DNA from: Oscillospiraceae bacterium
Lineage (GTDB): Bacteria > Bacillota > Clostridia > UBA1381
Assembly: GCA_015068545.1 (NCBI GenBank)
Contig: SVKH01000003.1
Span: 1 to 37,545, forward strand
Direction: 5' to 3'
Length of the DNA stretch: 37,545 nucleotides
Position 1 is the stretch's first letter. Each line of letters starts with the position of its first letter. The notes under the pieces were generated by a model. The model saw only the letters and a list, made by a program, of their open reading frames with translations. It made no database searches and was not told where the DNA came from. A program made the position numbers and the translations under genes. Below are positions 2,055 through 32,882 of the stretch, piece after piece.

Positions 2055-5000
2055 CTATTTATTTTCCTCTTCGGGTACGGGCAGAAATTCTGCATCTGCT
2101 ATCGGATACGCTGTAGCAAAATTTTCCCATACCATAATCGAAACCATATCAACAGCTTCCGTCATAGTTATATCTTCCTCATCTTTTGTATAAGGAATGT
2201 CCTTGACAGTAACAAGTCGTCCGTTTTTGTATCCGGCCACTAAAATGGTGCAGTTTTCCTCAATCCCGTAAAGCTTGGTATTAACAACACAGCCGGAATC
2301 GGTTTTTGAGATATTGCTTACCGTGCAAGGCATCGCCTTATATACCGGATAAAGAGTTGTATCTCCGGTAACCGTAACAGTGTCCTTTGTTCCGTAAACA
2401 ATGGTAGCTGTTTCCTCTGTATCAGACCAGCCAAGGAAAAGGTGTCCTTCCTTTTCAAATTCCTGCTCAAAGGCGTCAAGTCCAACCACTTCACCATTTG
2501 TAACAACTATCTGAGTAGCTTCGTCACCGTTCATTAAAGAAAGTAAGCAATGATAGTCAGGATCTTCCGCCCATTTTGCGTATAAGGTTACGTTATCTTC
2601 GATTGTGTCAGAGTCGAAGTCCCACTCTTTAGTAAGTTCGCTATCCTTGTACCAACCTTCGAATATAAATCCTGCGTAACTTGGGTCTTCTGGTCGTGCG
2701 ATGGTATCGCCTTTTTTTAGTTCCGACATCGATTCCACGGCACTTCCACCTGCAGATGCAAATACCGCTGTGTAGGACATTTCGATGGAAGCATCTTCAC
2801 AACCCTCTACCTTTAGATAACCGATGCCATCTTCTTCAGCATATGAAACAGCAATTTCATTTATATCATCAGAGATTTCGGTGATGATGTCATTGCTTTC
2901 ATAGTTCAAAGTGATTTTTGCACCTTTTAACGAACTATCAGAAGAAACTTCAACTACTCCATCTGCAGTTGGGGTCAACGTTAGCGTTTTTGTATTTGTT
3001 TCTACTAAAACGTTGTTCCATGGAATATCTGCATTTACAGTAATCCTAGCAGTTTTTTTACCCACCTCTGCCGATGTAATTGCAACCATTCCGTCCGGTG
3101 ACATACTAATAACCGGCTTTTTGTCTGACTCTGTATGAATCAGACTTTCGCTGGCATTGTAGACAATAGTTGTTTCGTAATTGTCCATGTCGGTGGCAGG
3201 AGAAACTGTATAAGAATTTTCATTTGCCAGCTGGTATGACAAAGTATTTGCACTAATATGTGAATATGATTCCGAAATATCAAGGTTTCCTGTGTGGTTT
3301 TCGCCTAAAACCTCGGCAGAATCCTCATCATCCGAAATTGTAAATTCAGGATAATTTGTTGTAAGCTCTGCCTTTTGCTCCACATCTGCAATATCAAATA
3401 GGTTTGGATTGTACATACTTCTACGTGATAAAAGTTCCTGTAAATTGTTTTTATCATACAAGTTAGTCCCTGCTAAAATGGAATGCAATCTAAGGGTCCC
3501 ATCGTTTGTTGAACGCATACCATCCACGCTATATGATACATTCTTAAAATCGTGTGAAATCTTCATTTCTTTTACTTTTCCCGTTTTATATACCGGCTTA
3601 CCTGGCTGACTTAAACTATCGTCAATTTGCACAAGACTATTCGGATCTGCAATTGTAACAATATATTCACTTCCATTATCCTCAACCTTGTATGCTAAGA
3701 CAGTGTGACCAATCCAACGCCCTGTCTTATTGTTCTCTCTGTATTTAAAATTTATGACAACAGGAGTTCCTGTAATATCAATACTTTTTAGAGAATTAAC
3801 CAATCGCTTCGCCACATTTGCAGATGAACCAGCTAGGAGAACCTCTGCATACTGTGAATACATATTCAAGTCTACATCAGGGAGATGTTGTGTGAGGAAA
3901 TAATAGTTTATGAGTGACTCTACCTTTGGATCTTTCTTCGGCCAAGGCAGTTCATATGGTGTATCTGCATTTTTACAAAAATACTCCGGATCAAGTCTGC
4001 CCACCTTCATCAAAGCCATAACTGCAACAATTCCAAAACAGTTCCCATCTTCTTTATTTTTCTTGTATTGACTCATTTGTATTTTTTGAAACCAATTCAA
4101 ATCCTTAGTTAGTATCTTGTAGTATTCGTCACTTATGTAGCAATCTTCGTGGAAAAATGGTGCACCATTTCCAAAGCTAAAAGTATCTACACCCCATTCA
4201 ATAAGGTCATTCTTTTTCCAACCGGCATACAAAGTCAAATTATTTGTTAAGGTTCTGTTTGTTATTCCTGCTGCCGAAATATACGGTGTACCTGTGCAAT
4301 TACGGTTAGCATACCAACCGGTAAAGGTGTAACCATCTCGTGTAGGTCTTGGCGGTGCCGGAACAAAGGTTCCCTCTTCAAGCTTCAATGATGAAATCAC
4401 ACAGCTTCCACCATTCGCATTGTATTTAATGGTATATTCCAAATTTGTACAATGAATTGTAGCATTGTATAGTTCTGGATCATATGAACGAATATTAATA
4501 CCTTCCCACTTTTTTTTACTTCCTCCATAATATATATCAGTTAAATTACTGCAACCTGCGAAAGCACTTTCACCAATGTAAACAACACTGTCAGGAATTC
4601 TTATATTTTTCATTTTGGTACAATTACAGAATGAGCAATCATAAATAGAAACCACTCCCTTAGGAATTATAATTGACTCTAAGCTACTGCATCCCAAAAA
4701 TAAACCATACCCAATAACAGAGATACTGCTAGGTATATTTATGGATGTGAGATTATTGCATCCTTCAAATGCAAAATCTCCTATGAAGGTTACACTATCC
4801 GGGATTTCTATTGAAGTTAGACTACTACATCTATTAAATGCATTATCCCCGATAGTAATAACACTATCAGGAATACTTATCTCGTTCAAGTTTATACAAT
4901 TAGTAAATGCACTCGTCTCAATAGAAACCACTCCATTCGAAATATTAATTGTTTTTAGACCCGTACAACCAGAAAATGCACCAGAACCAATGCTTATTAT

Positions 5001-5630
5001 ACTACCAGGAATATTGATGCACGTCAAGCTACTGCAATCGGAAAATGCCCGAAATCCAATCGAAGTAATGCTGTTTGGGATGGTGATGCGTTCCAGACTC
5101 TCGCAAAAACTAAATGCTTCTTCGCCAATGGAGGTAACGCTGCTTGGAATTGTAATATTTGTCAAACTATAACAATAAGCAAATGTACCATTATTTATGC
5201 TTTTTACACCGTTTGGAATGACAATACTTGTCAAACTGGTGCAAAAATCAAATGCCGATTCCCCAATGCTTGTTACGCTACTTGGAATGGTGATACTTTT
5301 CAGGTTTTCACAGCCACTAAATGCCGATTCCCCAATACTTGTTACGCTACTTGGAATGTTAACGCTTGTCAGATTTCTACAGCCACTGAATGCACCGACA
5401 GCGATACCTATTACAGGATAACCATCAAATACAGATGGTATAGTTATTGCACCATTACCATCTGGATCAAATCTTGTTATAACTGCCTTTCCGCTTGAAA
5501 TTTCATAATTATAACCGTTCGAGTAACCATAGTCTCCCCATGTTTCTGCCGATGCGGACATTGGCAGAACCGTAATCAGCGATGCTATTATACTAATCAC
5601 TAGCATCAGAGATAAAAGCCTTCTTTTCAT
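2055..5630 (-). CDS. Secreted BspA-type LRR_5 protein with InlB-type B-repeats and an internal papain-like cysteine-peptidase-like region
   Basis: Signal peptide MKRRLLSLMLVISIIASLITVLPMSASA; many IPxSVTSIGxxAFxxCxxL repeats; Y...GGxxxxxxxxxxGYTFTGWYxxxxCTG...LTLYAGW repeats; GNCFGIVAVMAL and GHTVLAYKV...IADPN motifs. Confidence 0.9.
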   Translation of the reverse strand: MKRRLLSLMLVISIIASLITVLPMSASAETWGDYGYSNGYNYEISSGKAVITRFDPDGNGAITIPSVFDGYPVIGIAVGAFSGCRNLTSVNIPSSVTSIGESAFSGCENLKSITIPSSVTSIGESAFDFCTSLTSIVIPNGVKSINNGTFAYCYSLTNITIPSSVTSIGEEAFSFCESLERITIPNSITSIGFRAFSDCSSLTCINIPGSIISIGSGAFSGCTGLKTINISNGVVSIETSAFTNCINLNEISIPDSVITIGDNAFNRCSSLTSIEIPDSVTFIGDFAFEGCNNLTSINIPSSISVIGYGLFLGCSSLESIIIPKGVVSIYDCSFCNCTKMKNIRIPDSVVYIGESAFAGCSNLTDIYYGGSKKKWEGINIRSYDPELYNATIHCTNLEYTIKYNANGGSCVISSLKLEEGTFVPAPPRPTRDGYTFTGWYANRNCTGTPYISAAGITNRTLTNNLTLYAGWKKNDLIEWGVDTFSFGNGAPFFHEDCYISDEYYKILTKDLNWFQKIQMSQYKKNKEDGNCFGIVAVMALMKVGRLDPEYFCKNADTPYELPWPKKDPKVESLINYYFLTQHLPDVDLNMYSQYAEVLLAGSSANVAKRLVNSLKSIDITGTPVVINFKYRENNKTGRWIGHTVLAYKVEDNGSEYIVTIADPNSLVQIDDSLSQPGKPVYKTGKVKEMKISHDFKNVSYSVDGMRSTNDGTLRLHSILAGTNLYDKNNLQELLSRRSMYNPNLFDIADVEQKAELTTNYPEFTISDDEDSAEVLGENHTGNLDISESYSHISANTLSYQLANENSYTVSPATDMDNYETTIVYNASESLIHTESDKKPVISMSPDGMVAITSAEVGKKTARITVNADIPWNNVLVETNTKTLTLTPTADGVVEVSSDSSLKGAKITLNYESNDIITEISDDINEIAVSYAEEDGIGYLKVEGCEDASIEMSYTAVFASAGGSAVESMSELKKGDTIARPEDPSYAGFIFEGWYKDSELTKEWDFDSDTIEDNVTLYAKWAEDPDYHCLLSLMNGDEATQIVVTNGEVVGLDAFEQEFEKEGHLFLGWSDTEETATIVYGTKDTVTVTGDTTLYPVYKAMPCTVSNISKTDSGCVVNTKLYGIEENCTILVAGYKNGRLVTVKDIPYTKDEEDITMTEAVDMVSIMVWENFATAYPIADAEFLPVPEEENK

Positions 5631-13976: not shown

Positions 13977-15677
13977 TTATTTTGCATACTCCCACGGTGC
14001 CCATGGGGCCATATCCGAAAGAGAATTCCATATCATTACCTTCGCCGTGGTATATTCTTTATCGGTAGTGTACGGAATAGGCTCGCCCTCATAAGTCTTC
14101 ACCATCACATCTACCAGCCTGTTTCCGTTATAAAGAGCAAGTACCATAGTATCTCCCGGATAAGATTTGGTATGATCTACCATAAAACTCTTATCATCCG
14201 GATCGGGCTCGTCACTGCCAATAAAGATAATTTCCTTACCAACCAGATTCCAGTCCTCATTATTTATGTTATTATACTCTTCCTCTGTTCCGTTGTAGTA
14301 GATTGTAGTTAGCGGACAATCAACAAACGCATATTCGCCGATATGTATAACACCACTTCCGATTACAAGAGTATTAAGGGAATCACACCCTGCAAAAGCG
14401 TAACCTCCAATATCCATCACACTATCCGGAATTGTGATACTTTCAAAAGCTGTACAAAAGCCAAAAGCCTCTTCACCTATCGTTTCAAGACTGCTAGGAA
14501 GATCGATTTCCGTAAGACTACGGCATTCCAAGAATGCATCCATTCTGATATAAGTAATGCTATCTGGAAGAATCACTTTTTCAAGACTTTCGCAGAACAG
14601 AAATGTTCCATATTGGATACCGTCCAAATTACCCAAAATCTCTACTGATACCAAATTTATACATCCTTCGAAGGCTAATGAACTAATGTATGTAATGCTT
14701 TCAGGCAGAACTATCTCTGTAAGCTCTTCGCATCCAGAAAAAGCACTATTTCCTATTATCTGTACACCCTCCGGTATTTCCACCTCACACAGGCAACTCC
14801 ACGAAAAAGCATGATCATCAATTGAAACCACACTGTTTGGCACACTGTAGCTCTCATCACTTTTTCCTGCAGGATAGTAAACTAATATCTCTTTATTTAT
14901 ATCAAAAAGAACACCGTTTTCCTGAGAGTAACAGCTGTTATTTGCATTCACATATATATTTTCAAGATTTGTGCTAGCATAAAAAGCTCCTGATTCGATA
15001 AATATCACACTTTCAGGAATTGTGTAACTTGTAGAAGGGTTTCCTGCAGGATATACTATAAGATCTGCTTTATCTTTGCTGAAAAGTACTCCGTTTTCTG
15101 AAGCATAGTTATTGTTATATGAAGATACGTTAATTGATTTCAGACTTTGACAGGTATAAAATGCATTACGTCCAATAGTTGTAACAGTGCTTGGAATATC
15201 TATACTACCCAAAAGTCTGCATGAAGAAAACGCACCAAATCCAATGGACACCAATCCTTCTCTCAAGTAAACACTTTCCAATCTTGAGCAAGCCTGAAAC
15301 GCCATGTCACCTATTGTTTCCACGCTAGGTGGAATACTGACTTCCTCAAGTCTTGTGTAAAAGAATGCACTACCTCCAATGCTTTTTAACGTATTTGGAA
15401 GGCTGACTCTTTGAACACCACAGAAATCAAACGCCTCGTCTGCGATGGAGGTAACACCATTACCTATTATGATCTCGGATATACTAAGATTATTCCAAGG
15501 CATATCATAATCTTCCTGCATATCGCCGGTACCGTTTATGGTAAGAACACCATTTTCGAATGTCCATGTGAGGTTATCTCCCCAAGTGCCACTCTCCGCA
15601 AGGACTGTCATGCCTCCCGGCACAAGCATCAGAATCATGCTAACAGCAATAAGCATTCCCAAAAATCTTTTTTTCAT
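13977..15677 (-). CDS. Secreted BspA-type LRR_5 protein
   Basis: Signal peptide MKKRFLGMLIAVSMILMLVPGGMTVLA; repeated IPxSVxxIGxxAFxxCxxL; C-terminal MVLALYNGNRLVDVMVKTY...AKVMIWNSLSDMAPW module. Confidence 0.9.
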   Translation of the reverse strand: MKKRFLGMLIAVSMILMLVPGGMTVLAESGTWGDNLTWTFENGVLTINGTGDMQEDYDMPWNNLSISEIIIGNGVTSIADEAFDFCGVQRVSLPNTLKSIGGSAFFYTRLEEVSIPPSVETIGDMAFQACSRLESVYLREGLVSIGFGAFSSCRLLGSIDIPSTVTTIGRNAFYTCQSLKSINVSSYNNNYASENGVLFSKDKADLIVYPAGNPSTSYTIPESVIFIESGAFYASTNLENIYVNANNSCYSQENGVLFDINKEILVYYPAGKSDESYSVPNSVVSIDDHAFSWSCLCEVEIPEGVQIIGNSAFSGCEELTEIVLPESITYISSLAFEGCINLVSVEILGNLDGIQYGTFLFCESLEKVILPDSITYIRMDAFLECRSLTEIDLPSSLETIGEEAFGFCTAFESITIPDSVMDIGGYAFAGCDSLNTLVIGSGVIHIGEYAFVDCPLTTIYYNGTEEEYNNINNEDWNLVGKEIIFIGSDEPDPDDKSFMVDHTKSYPGDTMVLALYNGNRLVDVMVKTYEGEPIPYTTDKEYTTAKVMIWNSLSDMAPWAPWEYAK

Positions 15678-15697: not shown

Positions 15698-17878
15698 TTA
15701 TATGTTTACTTTCACCGGTTCACAACATGGTTCACAGTTTTCAAGCTTTTCCCACACCATTACCCTCGCATCGGTGTAGGGCTCAGGTATATTGAAGGTC
15801 AGCATACTTCCCACAAAAGTTTTCCTTTGCATCCCCACAAATCTTTCGCCATCATATAAAGCCACAATAACATCCTTGCCACTTTCAATATTGATAGGTA
15901 GTGCCCTTATACGCTTACCACCAACAAGAGTAACCGTCTTTATATTCGGGATATAAATAGCATTGTTTTCAAATTCGTGATCCCACTCTTCTCCTACTTC
16001 CACACTATTTTTGTCTGCATAGATATTTATTGCCGACAAGCTATCACAAAGCGCAAAGGCTCTATCTCCTACATATGTAAGTCCTCTGCCTATTGTAACA
16101 TACGTAAGACTGTCACAATCGGAGAATGCACTTGTTTCGATATGGGTAACTCCATCGCCTATGGTTACAGTCTTAAGGTCTCTGCATTGATGAAAGGCGG
16201 CATTCCCTATCTGTTTTACGCTATCGGGGACAATAAGGCTTGTAATATCTGCGCCATAAAAAGCTCGTGTGCATATATATACCACACTATCTGGAATATG
16301 CACACCAGTAATAGTATTTAGCCAAAATGCTTCCTCTGCTATCAGCCTTGTACCTTCTTTTATGCGATATTCCCCTTCAACATCTTTTACCTCTATCAGA
16401 CAATTATCTATGTACAGAGCATCATCTTCCCAATTATCCTGATTATTATAGTATCCGGTTCCTTCAAAGGCATCATGACCAATATATGTCACACTCTCCG
16501 GAATATCCAACTCATTGATACCTGTACATCCGCTAAAGGCACTTATATGTATCTGAGTTATCTGCTCAGGGATATCTATACTCTCAATACTTCTGCAACC
16601 ATCAAATGTGGCATACTCAATGGAAGTTATACCGCTACCTATCAATACATCCTTCAGGTTTGAGCAGTAGCTAAATGCAGAACTTCCTAACTGGGTTACT
16701 CCGTCTGAAATCTCCGCTGACACAAGCTTATGGCACCCAGAGAAAGCTCCTACTCCCACAGTCTCTACCCAGTCCGGAATATATATTGTAGTAAGTCCTG
16801 AATATTCAAAGGCACGACGTCCCACAGCGGTTATGCCTTTGCCTATTTGTATGCCTCGAAGTCCTTTGCATCCTACGAAGTTCTCATCCTCAATTGCTAT
16901 AATACTATCCGGCATAACGTAGGAATCGTCCTCTCTACCCAGAGGATACATCATAACAAGGGTTATATCCTTATTATATAAAACGTTGTCAATGGCTGTA
17001 AAGTACGGATTTTCCGCATCCACGGTAATCTCTTTAAGTCCATAACATCCTTCAAAAGCTCCGCGATTTACACTCTGCATGGTAGACGGCAGATGAATAT
17101 TCTCAAGCATTGTACAATTATCAAATGCCATGTATCCAATTTCAGCTACACCTTCCGGAATGATAACCTGACTGAGACTTTCGCACTCAAAGAAAGTGTG
17201 ACCATAAATCACTTCGACTCCTTTGGAGAGCTTTACCGACTCCAGATTGTAACAGCAGAAAAAAGCACTTCCACCCAGATATGTGACGCTATCCGGAATA
17301 TCTACCTGCAAAAGCGAGGAACAAAATTGGAAAGCTCCTCCATTAATAGTCTTAAGATTATCCGGAAGGTCCAGATTTGTAAGCATCGAACAATCACTGA
17401 AGGCATTCTGATCTATCACCTCAAGAGCATCAGGGAATATAACATTTGTAAGCTCCTCGCAATTAGCAAAGGTATCCCTCTCGATAACAGTAACTCCTTT
17501 TGGAATCCGAATCTCCATCAGACTATCGCAGTAATCAAAGGCATATTTTCCTATATCGGTTATGGTATCCGCAAGGCTAACCTCCTCCACTATGTTGAAA
17601 TGTGAAAAAGCATAGGCAGATACAGATGTAACACCTTCGCTAACTACTATCTTCTCAGTATCTCTACTATAGTTATACCACGGATACTCTCTGCGAGAAT
17701 CGTACTCAGGCATATCACCAGTTCCGCTTATGGTAAGAGTGCCTGATGTTTCGTCAAATGTCCAGGTTAAATTATCACCGCAAGTACCGCTTTCGGAAGC
17801 AAAAACAGTGTTTACTGCACACAAGAGCATCAACATTATGCTAATAGTTATAAATAAACTGCAAACTTTCTTTGTCAT
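15698..17878 (-). CDS. Secreted BspA-type LRR_5 protein
   Basis: The Met at 17878 (MTKKVCSLFITISIMLMLLCAVNTVFA signal peptide; SD GGGAG upstream) is preferred over the ORF-track start at 17914; LRR_5 repeats; C-terminal VIVALYDGERFVGMQRKTF...ARVMVWEKLENCEP module. Confidence 0.9.
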   Translation of the reverse strand: MTKKVCSLFITISIMLMLLCAVNTVFASESGTCGDNLTWTFDETSGTLTISGTGDMPEYDSRREYPWYNYSRDTEKIVVSEGVTSVSAYAFSHFNIVEEVSLADTITDIGKYAFDYCDSLMEIRIPKGVTVIERDTFANCEELTNVIFPDALEVIDQNAFSDCSMLTNLDLPDNLKTINGGAFQFCSSLLQVDIPDSVTYLGGSAFFCCYNLESVKLSKGVEVIYGHTFFECESLSQVIIPEGVAEIGYMAFDNCTMLENIHLPSTMQSVNRGAFEGCYGLKEITVDAENPYFTAIDNVLYNKDITLVMMYPLGREDDSYVMPDSIIAIEDENFVGCKGLRGIQIGKGITAVGRRAFEYSGLTTIYIPDWVETVGVGAFSGCHKLVSAEISDGVTQLGSSAFSYCSNLKDVLIGSGITSIEYATFDGCRSIESIDIPEQITQIHISAFSGCTGINELDIPESVTYIGHDAFEGTGYYNNQDNWEDDALYIDNCLIEVKDVEGEYRIKEGTRLIAEEAFWLNTITGVHIPDSVVYICTRAFYGADITSLIVPDSVKQIGNAAFHQCRDLKTVTIGDGVTHIETSAFSDCDSLTYVTIGRGLTYVGDRAFALCDSLSAINIYADKNSVEVGEEWDHEFENNAIYIPNIKTVTLVGGKRIRALPINIESGKDVIVALYDGERFVGMQRKTFVGSMLTFNIPEPYTDARVMVWEKLENCEPCCEPVKVNI

Positions 17879-17904
17879 TATAGCCTCTTCATCTCCCTTT
17901 TTCA

Positions 17905-17938
17905 AAAACACCACCGCAACAGGGTATATGCGGTGGTG
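17905..17938 (-). terminator. Terminator downstream of gyrB
   Basis: Perfect 10-bp stem CACCACCGCA / TGCGGTGGTG with minus-strand T-run after the stem. Confidence 0.8.
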
Positions 17939-23824: not shown

Positions 23825-25528
23825 CTACATTTTTACATCTTTCAAAACAAGCTGCAGATTTTCTGCACCGTTATACTCATTTATGCTGATATTGTAAGCT
23901 ATGCTCACGGTCTCACCGCACTTAAGCTCACCAACCATATTCCCCATATTAAACCCGATACCGTTAAAAGTATTCTTGCCATCGGACATATACAGCTTCA
24001 GGTGACGGTTATCTGCGCCTATGGTACGGACTGTTATCAGTCTCATACCCTTTGACGAAAACACCGGAGTTTCGTTACTCATCCCAAAAGGCTCTAATTT
24101 CGACAAAATCTTTGCCGCATTTAGTGTGATGTCCGAGGTTGCAAGAGGACAATCTATATATATTTTAGGAAGGAGTGTTTTTCCTTCAAAGCATTTTTTT
24201 GCATATTGATTTAATCTTACTCTAAATTCTTCAATATTGCTTTGATTTATGCCAAAGCCTGCTGCCTGAGAATGCCCGCCAAATTCCGAAAGGATGTCAT
24301 CACACTCCGAAAGGGCAGAAAATAAATTCATTTCCTCTATGGACCTTCCCGATGCCTTTCCCTTTCCGTTCTGACAGGAAATCAAAATACATGGACGGTA
24401 GAACTGTTCACAAAGTTTGGAGGCAACTATGCCTATTACTCCGCTGTGCCAGTTTTCTGACCATAAAACATATGCAGACTGCTGGGTATCAAAGCTTTCT
24501 ATCTGCTTTAGAGCTTCTTTATATATTTCCTGCTCTATCTCCTGACGTTTTTTATTAAGGTTGTCAAGATATGTGGCTATTTTTAGGGCTTCGTCATAGT
24601 CCTCCTCTATCAGAAGGCGTACAGCAGTCTCGGCACTTTCCATTCTGCCTGCCGCATTAAGCCTTGGTGATATGGCAAATGCCACACTTTGCGCATCCAA
24701 TGTTTTACCACCCAGACCGGAAATACTAAGCAGAGCTTTTATACCGCAGTTTTTTGTTTGGGATAGCTTGGCTATGCCCTTTTCCACTATAACGCGGTTT
24801 TCACCCAAAAGCGGTACTACATCGGCTATTGTGCCTATTGCGACTAAATCTGCATATTCCATAAATATATTCTTGGTGTCCAGCTCCATCTTTATGCTGA
24901 TACCAAGTACTAGCTTAAAAGCAACTCCAACCCCTGCCAAAAACTCAAAACCATAGGTCGTATCCGGCTTTTTGGGATTGATAACGGCAACCGCCCTTGG
25001 AATCTCTTCCTTGCAGGTGTGGTGGTCTGTTATGATGAAATCTGCGCCCATAGTCTTAGCAAATTCCACTTCGCCCACACTGGTTATACCGCAGTCTACG
25101 CTTATAATAAGCTTTGCTCCATTTTTTATCAGTCGGTTAATTGCAGGGATGTTTAGTCCGTAGCCCTCCTTGTGTCTGTCGGGTATGTAGAACTCTACAT
25201 CAGCACCAACGCTTTTTAAGAATTTATAAAGGACTGCTGTGGCTGTTATACCATCTACGTCATAGTCACCGTAGATTATGATTTTCTCATGGCTGTCCAC
25301 CGCCTTTTTTATCCTGGCGACAGCTACTTCCATATCTTCAAAATTAAATGGGCTGTTTATAGCGGCAAGACTTTTCCTAAAATAAGCCGAAACCTCCGCA
25401 TCCTCTGTTATGCCGCGGTTTAAAAGCAAACAGGCAACAACAGGCGGCAGCCCATGCTTGTTACCGAAAGCAGTGATGTCATCTTTATTTAAATGTCTGC
25501 TCTTGTATTCCCATATTTTACTCTGCAT
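23825..25528 (-). CDS. recJ: Single-stranded-DNA-specific exonuclease RecJ
   Basis: IIIYGDYDVDGITATAVLYKFLKSVGADVEFYIPDRHKEGYG, ISVDCGIT, ITDHHTC, GGHSQAAGF. Confidence 0.97.
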   Translation of the reverse strand: MQSKIWEYKSRHLNKDDITAFGNKHGLPPVVACLLLNRGITEDAEVSAYFRKSLAAINSPFNFEDMEVAVARIKKAVDSHEKIIIYGDYDVDGITATAVLYKFLKSVGADVEFYIPDRHKEGYGLNIPAINRLIKNGAKLIISVDCGITSVGEVEFAKTMGADFIITDHHTCKEEIPRAVAVINPKKPDTTYGFEFLAGVGVAFKLVLGISIKMELDTKNIFMEYADLVAIGTIADVVPLLGENRVIVEKGIAKLSQTKNCGIKALLSISGLGGKTLDAQSVAFAISPRLNAAGRMESAETAVRLLIEEDYDEALKIATYLDNLNKKRQEIEQEIYKEALKQIESFDTQQSAYVLWSENWHSGVIGIVASKLCEQFYRPCILISCQNGKGKASGRSIEEMNLFSALSECDDILSEFGGHSQAAGFGINQSNIEEFRVRLNQYAKKCFEGKTLLPKIYIDCPLATSDITLNAAKILSKLEPFGMSNETPVFSSKGMRLITVRTIGADNRHLKLYMSDGKNTFNGIGFNMGNMVGELKCGETVSIAYNISINEYNGAENLQLVLKDVKM

Positions 25529-25704
25529 TTTATAAGTCTCCGCAACACAATATTTTTTAGTCTTTTTCTTAAAAAAACACTACCCATTTTATATTATAAC
25601 TTATCTATCATATTATATCATTTTTATATTATTTTTTCAAGTAAATTTGCATAAAAAATATAGATTTACACAATATAAAATTACACAGAAAGGAAGTGAT
25701 ATTT

Positions 25705-25830
25705 GTGTCAAACAATAATCAAAATCAAAACAAGAATAACCAGAACAAAAACGACAATAAGAACCAGAATCAAAACAAGAATAACCAAAATAAGAACGAT
25801 AATAAGAACGATAATAAGAAGCAATACTAA
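25705..25830 (+). CDS. 41-aa Asn/Gln/Lys-rich small protein of unknown function
   Basis: GTG start with SD AGAAAGGAAG 8 nt upstream; MSNNNQNQNKNNQNKNDNKNQNQNKNNQNKNDNKNDNKKQY*; all six differences between its two 45-nt repeats are synonymous in this frame; followed by a strong terminator. Confidence 0.75.
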   Translation: MSNNNQNQNKNNQNKNDNKNQNQNKNNQNKNDNKNDNKKQY

Positions 25831-25836
25831 AATACG

Positions 25837-25880
25837 AAAAATGAGCTGTGACAACAAATCACAGCTCATTTTATTTCTTT
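25837..25880 (+). terminator. Terminator of the small Asn/Gln/Lys-rich gene
   Basis: Perfect 11-bp stem ATGAGCTGTGA-CAACAAA-TCACAGCTCAT with flanking A/T runs. Confidence 0.88.
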
Positions 25881-25983
25881 ATAGGAAACTGCGTTCCCGT
25901 AAAGAAAAAAATAATCATACTGCCGTGCAATTTTTTTTGAAAAGCTTTAGCTTTTCAAAAAATGCACATGGCATAAGAAAAGC
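25877..25983 (+). repeat. Composite hairpin element, left inverted copy
   Basis: CTTTATAGGAAACTGCGTT...TGCCGTGCAATTTTTTTT-GAAAAGC-TTTA-GCTTTTC-AAAAAATGCACATGGCATAAGAAAAGC; inverted homolog at 27774..27881. Confidence 0.85.
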
Positions 25984-26034
25984 AAAATTGCTTCGGCCTT
26001 CCGCCGTAGGCGGTGCAGCGAAGCTGCTTTTCTT
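25975..26034. repeat. GC-rich nested palindrome adjoining the left element
   Basis: AAGAAAAGCA ... TGCTTTTCTT outer 10-bp stem, GCTTCG/CGAAGC middle, CCGCC-GTA-GGCGG tip. Confidence 0.75.
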
Positions 26035-26042
26035 GTTACAAG

Positions 26043-27644
26043 TTATAAGCCCTTCACAAACCGAAAATCAGTATCACTTTCCTCTCTTGTTACTTCTGCA
26101 GTTACCGTGTCATTTATAAGGTTTTGGGTTACAACATTATCAACTATCATTATCTTTACTTTTTTTATTTCTCCGGGATCAGGGGCAACGAGGTAAGCTT
26201 CCTGCGCCTCAGATGTTACGCGGTAGGTTCCTACTCCTAAAACCTTATCATTTAAATTACGGAACAAGCCTATTATGGTAACATCGGAATTATCCTCACC
26301 AAGCTTTACATAAACTCCGATGCTGTCTCCAAACGCATCGCATTCAGCCTCAAGCACAGGTGCTGATGGCTTATACTCATAGTGTATTTTAGACTCATGC
26401 AACTCTTCATTTCCGACACCTATTTCAATATTTTTCCACTGCTCTTCTGTTCCCGTGTAATATACATCGTCAATCCCGAGAATTGAACTGAAAGCATAAT
26501 CGCCAATAAAGGAAATGCTCTTAGGTATAGTAATACTTGCAAGTCTTATACATTGCGAAAAGGTGTATGTTCCGATGGAGGTAATACCATCGCCAATGAT
26601 TACACTTTCAAGATATTCGCAACTAGAAAACGCAGAATCGCCAAGACTTGTAACACTATCAGGTATTGTTATGCTTTTAATGCTGCTGCAAAAGTCAAAC
26701 GCACCACTGCCTATAGATGCAACGCCATTACCCAAAATCACTCTTTTAAGGTAATGGCAGCTACGAAACGCATCCTCATCAATAACTGTGCCATTACCCC
26801 CTGCTATGCTTACAATTTTCAGACTATTGCAATCACAAAATGCTTTCTTCCCAATGTATTCAATGGTTTTCGGGAAGATTACGCCTTCAATATTTTCATT
26901 ACCCCAAAATGAATAGCTTCTGACAGAGGTAACTCCCTCAGGTATGATAAGTGTTTTATCCTCCTTTCCCAAGGCATACTGGATAAACTCGGTTTTGTCT
27001 TTGCTATAAAGATTTCCGTCAAGGGATGATAAGTGCATATTATCTTCATCTACCTCTATGCTTGTGAGTGCCTCACATCTATCAAAACACATCTCTCCCA
27101 CAGATGCACAGCTCTTGCCAAGGACTACTTTTTCAAGCCTATCGCAGCCATAAAACATCCTTTCACCAATAGACTGAACACTATCAGGAATGGTAATGGT
27201 CTTAATCATATCACAACCCGCAAACACACCTCCGCCCATAGAGATAACGCTGTTTGGTATGCTTATTTCTACAAGACTATCACATCCATTAAATGCCGCT
27301 TCCCCAATATCAGTAACACCTTCATGTATGGTAATACTTTCAATTTTCTTACAACCCGAAAAAGCACGCGAACCAATGCTGGTAATACTACCCGGTATTG
27401 TTAAGCTTTTAATCCTATCGCATTTAAAAAAAGCATCTGAGTCAATAGCGGTAACAGGGTATCCCTCAATGGTATCAGGAATAACCATCTCTCCGGGTGT
27501 AGAATCTATACAGTCGGTGATTGTAACCTCTCCATTATTTACCTTGTAGCTCCAGCATTCGTATTTTTCTACAGCCGCAAAGCTTGTTTCCACAGCAAAA
27601 ACACCTGTGATAATCGTAAGTATCACAAACAATATTTTTCTCAT
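26043..27644 (-). CDS. Secreted BspA-type LRR_5 protein
   Basis: Signal peptide MRKILFVILTIITGVFAVETSFAA; IPDSVTSLGDSAFSSCEYLESVIIG-type repeats. Confidence 0.9.
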   Translation of the reverse strand: MRKILFVILTIITGVFAVETSFAAVEKYECWSYKVNNGEVTITDCIDSTPGEMVIPDTIEGYPVTAIDSDAFFKCDRIKSLTIPGSITSIGSRAFSGCKKIESITIHEGVTDIGEAAFNGCDSLVEISIPNSVISMGGGVFAGCDMIKTITIPDSVQSIGERMFYGCDRLEKVVLGKSCASVGEMCFDRCEALTSIEVDEDNMHLSSLDGNLYSKDKTEFIQYALGKEDKTLIIPEGVTSVRSYSFWGNENIEGVIFPKTIEYIGKKAFCDCNSLKIVSIAGGNGTVIDEDAFRSCHYLKRVILGNGVASIGSGAFDFCSSIKSITIPDSVTSLGDSAFSSCEYLESVIIGDGITSIGTYTFSQCIRLASITIPKSISFIGDYAFSSILGIDDVYYTGTEEQWKNIEIGVGNEELHESKIHYEYKPSAPVLEAECDAFGDSIGVYVKLGEDNSDVTIIGLFRNLNDKVLGVGTYRVTSEAQEAYLVAPDPGEIKKVKIMIVDNVVTQNLINDTVTAEVTREESDTDFRFVKGL

Positions 27645-27675
27645 AGACCTTTCCTCTTTTTCCTCTTTTTCTCTG

Positions 27676-27704
27676 ATTATACCACCTAAAAAGGGATTTG
27701 TAAA
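27676..27704 (-). promoter_or_regulatory. Sigma-A promoter of the 26043..27644 gene
   Basis: Minus strand TTTACA (27704..27699), 17 nt, TATAAT (27681..27676). Confidence 0.75.
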
Positions 27705-27773
27705 GGCTTATAAGCATCCCGCTTCATTTTAAAATCAAACCGTTCACATAAAGCAAGCAAAGCGGAGTAATTC

Positions 27774-27881
27774 GCTTTTCTTATGCCATGTGCATTTTTG
27801 AAAAAGCTAACGCTTTTTCCAAAAAAAATTGCACGGCAGTATAATTATTTCTGCTTTATCAAAACGCAGTTTCCTATAAAG
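27774..27881 (-). repeat. Composite hairpin element, right inverted copy
   Basis: Reverse complement matches 25877..25983, with identical blocks CTTTATAGGAAACTGCGTT, TGCCGTGCAATTTTTTTT and TGCACATGGCATAAGAAAAGC. Confidence 0.85.
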
Positions 27882-27916
27882 CAAAAATACGACAAAGCCC
27901 ATAGCTATGCCGTATT
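27882..27916 (-). terminator. Terminator downstream of the SLOG gene
   Basis: Minus strand ATACGGCA...TGTCGTAT stem (one G-U pair) followed by TTTTT. Confidence 0.65.
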
Positions 27917-27920
27917 ATAT

Positions 27921-28403
27921 CTACATATTTTTGAATAAATTTATAACCTCTATTCCCTTTTCCTCTGCCATCCTAACCGTCTGCCCTGTACCGCTTTTCG
28001 GGTTCTTTAAATAGCAGATGCAGTAGTCGGATGCTTCCACCATTGCCATATTACGCTTTTTCATAAGATGTGGTGACCTGCTCTTTTGACTGGTGTAGAG
28101 TACCTCATCAGCAGAAGCCAGTATCCTGTTATACACTTCCACATCTTCTTCCTGCCAGTCATAGGCTTGGTCAGGGCAAGGCAGATACAAGCAAAGCGTG
28201 ATATCATAGCTTTTTTTCAGCTTTAAAACAGTTTCAGCGGCGAGGGTATCAAAACCCAAAGCGCCGCCGCATATAAACACTTTTACATCATTTTCAATCA
28301 TATCCAGAATGCTTTTTTCAAGTCTGGGTAAAATGGCAGATTTTTCAAAATCCTCCATCACTCTGTGACCTGTAAAAAAGCAGGCAAGAGGTATCAGATT
28401 CAT
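27921..28403 (-). CDS. SLOG-superfamily DUF1273/YpsA-like protein
   Basis: CFFTGHRVMEDFEKSAILPRLEKSI...FICGGALGFDTLAAETVLKLK...DYCICYLKNPKSGTGQTVRMAEEKGIEVINL. Confidence 0.82.
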   Translation of the reverse strand: MNLIPLACFFTGHRVMEDFEKSAILPRLEKSILDMIENDVKVFICGGALGFDTLAAETVLKLKKSYDITLCLYLPCPDQAYDWQEEDVEVYNRILASADEVLYTSQKSRSPHLMKKRNMAMVEASDYCICYLKNPKSGTGQTVRMAEEKGIEVINLFKNM

Positions 28404-29161
28404 ATTATTTCCCCTATCAGGCTATTCATATCATAAAGACCTTTCGGCTTACCCTTCATAAACTTTGCAGCACGAATACTACCTACCGCAAAGACCTCCT
28501 TGGAGGTTGCCTGATGCTTAAGCTCAACTACTTCGTCCTTGCCTGCAAATATAACGCTGTGCTCGCCTACAATAGTACCGCCGCGTATAGCATGGATTCC
28601 TATTTCGTTATTTGTCCTCTTTTTACGAACACTGTGACGGTCATACACATACTCAGGTGAATTATCAAGCACAGAGGATATGCTGTCTGCAAGTGCTAAT
28701 GCTGTACCGCTTGGCGCATCTATCTTTTGGTTATGATGCTTTTCGATTATTTCAACGTCAAAATCTCCCCAAAGAAGCGACGCAGCCTTTTTACAAAGCT
28801 GAGTTAAAAGGTTAATGCCCAGACTCATATTAGCGGAAAAGAACACAGGGATTTCACTTTGTGCTGAAAACAGCTCTGCCTTTTGCTCATCACTAAGGCC
28901 TGTGGTAGCTTCAATCAACGGAATATTCTTCCGTTTTGCAAGAGCTATTGAGCCTGATAGTGCAGACGGATGGGAAAAATCTATGATAACATCCGCTTCC
29001 ACATCGCAAAGACTTCCGTCAGTAAACACAGGATAGCTGTTTTCTATCCCATCGGAAACATCTACACCTGCTACAATTTCGCAGTCTTGGTCAAACTCGG
29101 TAAGGGCAGTTATAACTCTGCCCATTTTTCCGTTACAGCCAACTAAAATTATATTCGTCAT
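28400..29161 (-). CDS. dapB: 4-hydroxy-tetrahydrodipicolinate reductase
   Basis: VGCNGKMGRVI, DFSHPSAL, ATTGLSDEQ, EKHHNQKIDAPSGTALALAD. Confidence 0.96.
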   Translation of the reverse strand: MTNIILVGCNGKMGRVITALTEFDQDCEIVAGVDVSDGIENSYPVFTDGSLCDVEADVIIDFSHPSALSGSIALAKRKNIPLIEATTGLSDEQKAELFSAQSEIPVFFSANMSLGINLLTQLCKKAASLLWGDFDVEIIEKHHNQKIDAPSGTALALADSISSVLDNSPEYVYDRHSVRKKRTNNEIGIHAIRGGTIVGEHSVIFAGKDEVVELKHQATSKEVFAVGSIRAAKFMKGKPKGLYDMNSLIGEII

Positions 29162-32674: not shown

Positions 32675-32705
32675 GAATAATGTTTCCTAATACTAAAAAA
32701 ACAAT

Positions 32706-32882
32706 ACGGATAGCTCTCCGTGCCATATGACACGACAACCGGATGAATCTTATTTCACCCAGCCGGATACGGTCTTTGACATTACCGCCCTCGGCACCTG
32801 CACCTTTCACCTGCGGCATCACACTTGTCGATGCTATAATATCCGCAAGATACTGATTACAAAATGCACCTCTACCAAATAC
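32706..32882 (-). ncRNA. Lysine riboswitch (L box)
   Basis: Minus strand GGTAGAGGTGCATTTTG...AGTATC...GCAGGTGAAAGGTGCAGGTGCCGAGGGCGG...GGCTGGGTGAAA...GGCACGGAGAGCTATCC matches L-box landmarks (AGAGGTGC, AGTA, GGTGAAAGG..GCCGA, GGAG.GCTATC); upstream of lysA. Confidence 0.88.

Follow-up and report, generated by a model that had tools for sequence, protein, structure and literature searches.

Inverted repeats around a BspA-type LRR gene as probable independent insertions of a non-coding three-hairpin element behind intrinsic terminators

MITEs, such as BOX/RUP-like elements, are short, non-coding, intergenic repeats present in high copy number. In IS608, the target stays in the left flank of the element and is read by pairing with a guide at the left hairpin (PMC5934647), and group IIC introns use intrinsic terminators as insertion sites, entering in a single orientation (PMC4424553). 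Here we describe a repeat pair in a 37,545-nucleotide stretch of DNA (the window) from an Oscillospiraceae bacterium of the gut, whose metagenome-assembled genome (MAG; G000) comprises 1.45 Mb and is about 75% complete. A preliminary description had presented the two repeats as the ends of a mobile or invertible cassette packaging one LRR gene. The features of the locus are:

25703..25831, plus strand: small ORF rich in Asn, Gln and Lys (43 codons read), divergent from recJ; congeners carry a like ORF and terminator upstream of recJ
25838..25872, plus strand: intrinsic terminator of the small ORF, serving copy 1 as insertion target; perfect inverted repeat of 14 bp (I5), fold -19.3 kcal/mol
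25874..26036, plus strand: copy 1 of the three-hairpin element; copies 96-98% identical elsewhere in the genome, structure covarying across genera
25874-25907, 25922-25972 and 25973-26036, plus strand: hairpins H1, H2 and H3 of copy 1, from its fold
26043..27644, minus strand: BspA-type LRR protein gene, 533 aa (LRR_5, PF13306, E 1.2e-77)
27676..27704, minus strand: LRR gene promoter, TTTACA-17-TATAAT, from the sequence
27771..27884, minus strand: copy 2, with H1-H2 kept and H3 lost, replaced or degenerate; 87% identity to copy 1, covariance model R1 E 3e-11
27887..27915, minus strand: intrinsic terminator of the ypsA/dap operon and insertion target of copy 2; flank (locus L023) fold -14.2 kcal/mol

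Much of the preliminary description of this layout was borne out. An inverted-repeat search (pairs I1-I3) and BLAST, in which copy 2 matched copy 1 with 87% identity over 113 nt (query 3-115, E 8e-33), placed the repeats face to face across the LRR gene; the promoter ascribed to that gene is present on the minus strand, and the terminators reported outside each repeat correspond to the hairpins at 25838-25872 and 27887-27915. Scanning 28 window proteins revealed no recombinase or transposase, again as described. The repeat itself stands, while its length of ~107 bp does not: the unit measures ~163 bp, and the third hairpin, recognised by folding and flank comparison, had been overlooked. For the small ORF there was no Pfam match and no known family. 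An Rfam scan of the window returned a lysine riboswitch (RF00168, E 1.6e-20; 32703-32882, minus strand, between the lysA ORF and the next gene upstream) as the sole match above gathering score, and the element matches no known Rfam RNA at that threshold.

Copy 1 folds into three hairpins with z-scores of -6.7 as RNA and -6.9 as DNA. Across 12 sequences from four genomes, 95% of cells in the H1-H2 structure are paired and ten pairs are changed on both sides, versus 3.7 in shuffles; with H3 added, 13 pairs show compensated changes, and such compensation in the stems extends across genera. H2 does not resemble H3, and the two ends of the element (5' TTxCTTTATAGG versus 3', as reverse complement, AAGAAAAGCAGC) do not form terminal inverted repeats. 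Single copies in G020, a genome of an independent genus, have differing outer H1 stems (ATTGTATAGG, TATCATAGG and others) in which the 3' arms match. G020 also contains a long form whose H1-to-H3 length is ~288 bp, against ~176 bp in the usual one; a structured insert of 106 bp lies within the 5' part of its H3 (loci C62:29762, C64:2685, C99:15961, C110, C123, C124, C126, C141 and C35).

Searching the rest of the genome with BLAST, a check suggested by the preliminary description, revealed about 30 copies in the MAG: 28 good copies by BLAST and 30 by model R1, four of whose matches are too diverged for BLAST. The flanks of these copies are mutually unrelated, and nearly all copies have a hairpin and T-tract immediately before their left end. 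The placements behind terminators are in one orientation, and at its right end the element has a hairpin of its own with a T-rich stretch after it. By a strict automatic test that scored 1.6% of random positions and 8.4% of TTTT-matched positions as terminators, 20/27 left flanks and 0/23 right flanks in G000 were positive (binomial p about 2e-16 for the left flanks), and the seven left flanks failing it were mostly near misses or tandem copies on the H3 of the previous copy, which serves as their target. The same test in G020, which has more than 60 copies (74 H1 sites, 84 H3 sites), gave 23/32 on the left and 0/32 on the right. One pair of paralogous loci in G020 carries one copy versus two, and the distribution of the element is patchy within a genus. 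No target-site duplication was consistent across the copies read, where T-rich sites make duplication ambiguous. A second element of ~107 bp, starting at about TTATATAGGAAATTACAACATTTATGTTGTAATTTC and ending in a hairpin and TTTT, also lies behind terminators, often directly 5' of the three-hairpin element (L178 and L059 in G020; L009, L014 and L024 in G000; L094 in G003).

Model R1 also matched elements that have the same central hairpin, GCCCGTGCGAAATTTTC..GAAACGCACATGGGC, combined with other H1 and H3 parts; H2 is what this superfamily shares. Of 391 Clostridia genomes, 16, belonging to 11 genera, contain a match to a pattern made from H2 alone, and the reversed control matched none. All 30 H2 loci that were read fall into three classes, with 6 behind terminators, 13 behind Shine-Dalgarno (SD) sequences and 11, including one degenerate locus, behind a -10 box. 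Each class has its own copy of the target signal at the 3' end and a complementary stretch adjoining the first hairpin. The SD class is laid out as GGAG../AACGTGAAAGTTCCTTTCACGTT-ATGCCTCCGG..H2..GGCGGAATGGAGATTATTATG, and 20 of its 22 copies end in an SD-like GGAG, GGTG or GGAA located a few bases ahead of an ORF's ATG; the genes behind it are unrelated, resembling by sequence LeuC, the ATP synthase c subunit, CobD, a serine recombinase and others. The -10 class reads TGnTATAAT/arm-loop-arm-ATTATA..H2..palindrome ending TGnTATAAT, with TATAAT at both ends in 10/10 copies and tandem copies placed behind the TATAAT of the previous one. The n of TGnTATAAT agrees between the ends in 8/9 copies (p 0.0045 by shuffles, which leave common descent in), and part of the signal agreement within classes may come from common descent.

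In two genera, an SD-class element (L142 in G055, L145 in G012) stands ahead of a serine-recombinase-like gene (MQFFNYKDSVAIYLRKSRMDPDDES...) that is near-identical between the two, and such genes are possible carriers of the element between species. Searches of viral, phage and plasmid sequences returned no full element; viral matches to the H2 pattern were rejected as family members since they look like coding coincidences. The SD-bearing end alone also occurs in a Roseburia plasmid and in phage contigs. There the segment CATTACTATTTGTGCCGCC..GGCGGCGGAATGGAGATTATTATG, joined to another front part, is present in L264 (Roseburia sp. 831b plasmid, 2501-2553) and L265 (phage contig MT836273), and the Roseburia segment adjoins an IS110 transposase gene.

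The window pair consists of two ordinary copies of what appears to be a mobile non-coding three-hairpin element. We further propose, with a probability of roughly three in four, that they are independent insertions of a non-autonomous element, the terminator class of the H2 superfamily, which would be guided by base pairing and moved in trans by an enzyme. This proposal draws, from sequence comparison, on the number of copies, on their fixed orientation and placement behind a signal, on the restatement of that signal at the 3' end, on the paired structure and on sites that are empty in relatives. The left end of the element would insert directly 3' of an intrinsic terminator, and the sister classes 3' of an SD or extended -10 sequence. 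The target would be found through the stretch 3' of H1, pairing an A-run with the T-tract, CCTCC with GGAGG or ATTATA with TATAAT, and in every class the 3' end, which repeats the signal, pairs with the 5' foot of H3. Complementarity between target and guide is clear class by class; copy by copy it is strong just for the two base pairs adjoining H1 in the SD class, with columns 3-8 marginal (p 0.02-0.24), and we therefore infer the guiding rather than observe it.

The enzyme acting in trans would most likely be a single-strand HUH transposase of the IS200/IS605 kind, and none could be tied to the element. Y1 transposases are present in G000, G003 and G020 and absent from G022, which has copies; the Y1 genes examined in G000 and G020 have no flanking element and none has element ends. 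Pairing H1 with H3 sites in G020 to look for an autonomous, Y1-bearing copy gave just the ~176- and ~288-bp units, the unpaired G020 sites that were read showed no transposase-bearing unit, and orphan ends in G000 (L029, L031) and G020 are truncated or variant copies with no autonomous partner. A RAYT-like Y1 transposase of 312 aa on contig C92 of G000 (L120) is flanked by short repeats of its own (GGGGACGTAGCACTTTTT, about 610-670 and 1650-1700), one of which seems to be the target terminator of element copy L025. Identity of the element with an attC site or an IS91 end was considered and dropped, as was a dif/Xer-like site, for which the H1 spacer is too variable in length.

In the cassette interpretation, the repeats would bound a unit, mobile or invertible, that contains the LRR gene. 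The convergent copies do enclose a single gene with its own promoter, and the stretch separating two conserved gene blocks is specific to the species; the description of the repeats as mobile-looking also holds, given their many copies and a locus that varies among relatives. The copies nevertheless each follow the single-copy terminator rule, copy 2 is without one end structure, and wherever else two copies lie close together in the genome they are in direct or tandem arrangement. At least five other LRR genes in the genome have no flanking repeat, including three BspA-type genes that lie among housekeeping genes in the window (2055-5630, 13977-15677 and 15698-17914). The bracketing of a gene thus recurs neither at other LRR genes nor at other repeat pairs, and since those LRR genes are unflanked the cassette or invertible-unit reading is not supported; we regard it as very improbable. 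The inward-facing layout instead arises because two neighbouring units, the small ORF (plus strand) and the dap operon (minus strand), converge, each with a terminator and a copy.

Two blocks are conserved, that of recJ and that of lysA-asd-dapA-dapB-ypsA, but they are apart in the congeners read, where neither adjoins an LRR gene; the junction in the window is therefore specific to its species, the only one among those congeners to have the two blocks side by side (23825-29161). The segment between the repeats coincides with this synteny break, and the repeat is often found at contig ends in this MAG. Rearrangement mediated by the repeat or a mis-joined, chimeric contig is thus possible at the junction, yet that either produced the inverted pair as a by-product appears unlikely, as copy 2 is diverged (87%), its flanks obey the ordinary insertion rule and other LRR genes lie on the same contig. 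Comparison of occupied with empty sites, a further check proposed for the locus, covered the conserved recJ-side terminator, which is followed by the three-hairpin element in G000, by the different short element (L094) in G003 and, in several further congeners, by no element of the kind; the site is empty in most congeners. Those sites weigh against the copies being conserved structured RNAs, acting as 3'-UTR or leader regulators under selection, rather than mobile DNA. The strongly compensated structure would suit such RNAs, as would the other classes, where structure would mask the SD or overlap the promoter; the unrelated host genes, the patchiness within a genus, the tandem copies and the one-versus-two-copy paralogues do not, and we consider this explanation unlikely. 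RNA-mediated insertion by group IIC-type reverse transcriptase machinery would fit the highly structured element and its one insertion orientation, and group IIC introns also use intrinsic terminators (PMC4424553). Against it, no reverse transcriptase gene was matched in G000 or G003, no group II intron was found by Rfam in the window or among the weak matches around copy 1, and the target signal of the -10 class is not itself transcribed, which makes this route a distinctly poor candidate.

For the wider set of elements, we lean slightly towards one superfamily of tiny non-coding mobile elements in three classes, inserting behind an extended -10, a ribosome-binding site or a terminator. Each would identify its signal through base pairing and bring along a replacement for it at the far end, such that insertion even between the SD and start codon of housekeeping-type genes could be tolerated. 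If this is true, these elements are natural selfish DNA aimed at gene-expression signals and mending what insertion breaks. Target choice, apparently encoded in a short complementary stretch, would then constitute a reprogrammable insertion system, and the superfamily would supply mobile promoters, ribosome-binding sites and terminators and would account for crowded intergenic repeats in uncultured gut Clostridia. A literature search found no description of the family, which is apparently undescribed, with the insertion rule and the restated signals as its interesting part.

Like MITEs, the element is short, non-coding, intergenic and present in high copy number, but it has no terminal inverted repeats and shows no consistent target duplication at its ambiguous, T-rich sites. 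It resembles the REP/REPIN and RAYT systems in forming many short hairpin repeats between genes, and differs from them in that the RAYT-like gene of G000 has different repeats of its own and no element nearby. With group IIC introns it shares insertion at terminators in a single orientation, whereas at 163 bp it is without ribozyme, reverse transcriptase or splice ends and has sister classes that target SD and -10 sequences. In comparison with IS200/IS605 elements and their non-autonomous PATEs, the element differs in that its target would be paired through a whole extra hairpin (H1), in having expression signals as targets and an H2 unlike H3, and in having no linked cognate Y1 transposase. 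It is like them in its oriented insertion 3' of a short sequence retained in the left flank and in having hairpins at both ends without terminal inverted repeats; the target-complementary stretch between H1 and H2, clear at the level of classes, may be a counterpart of the IS608 guide.
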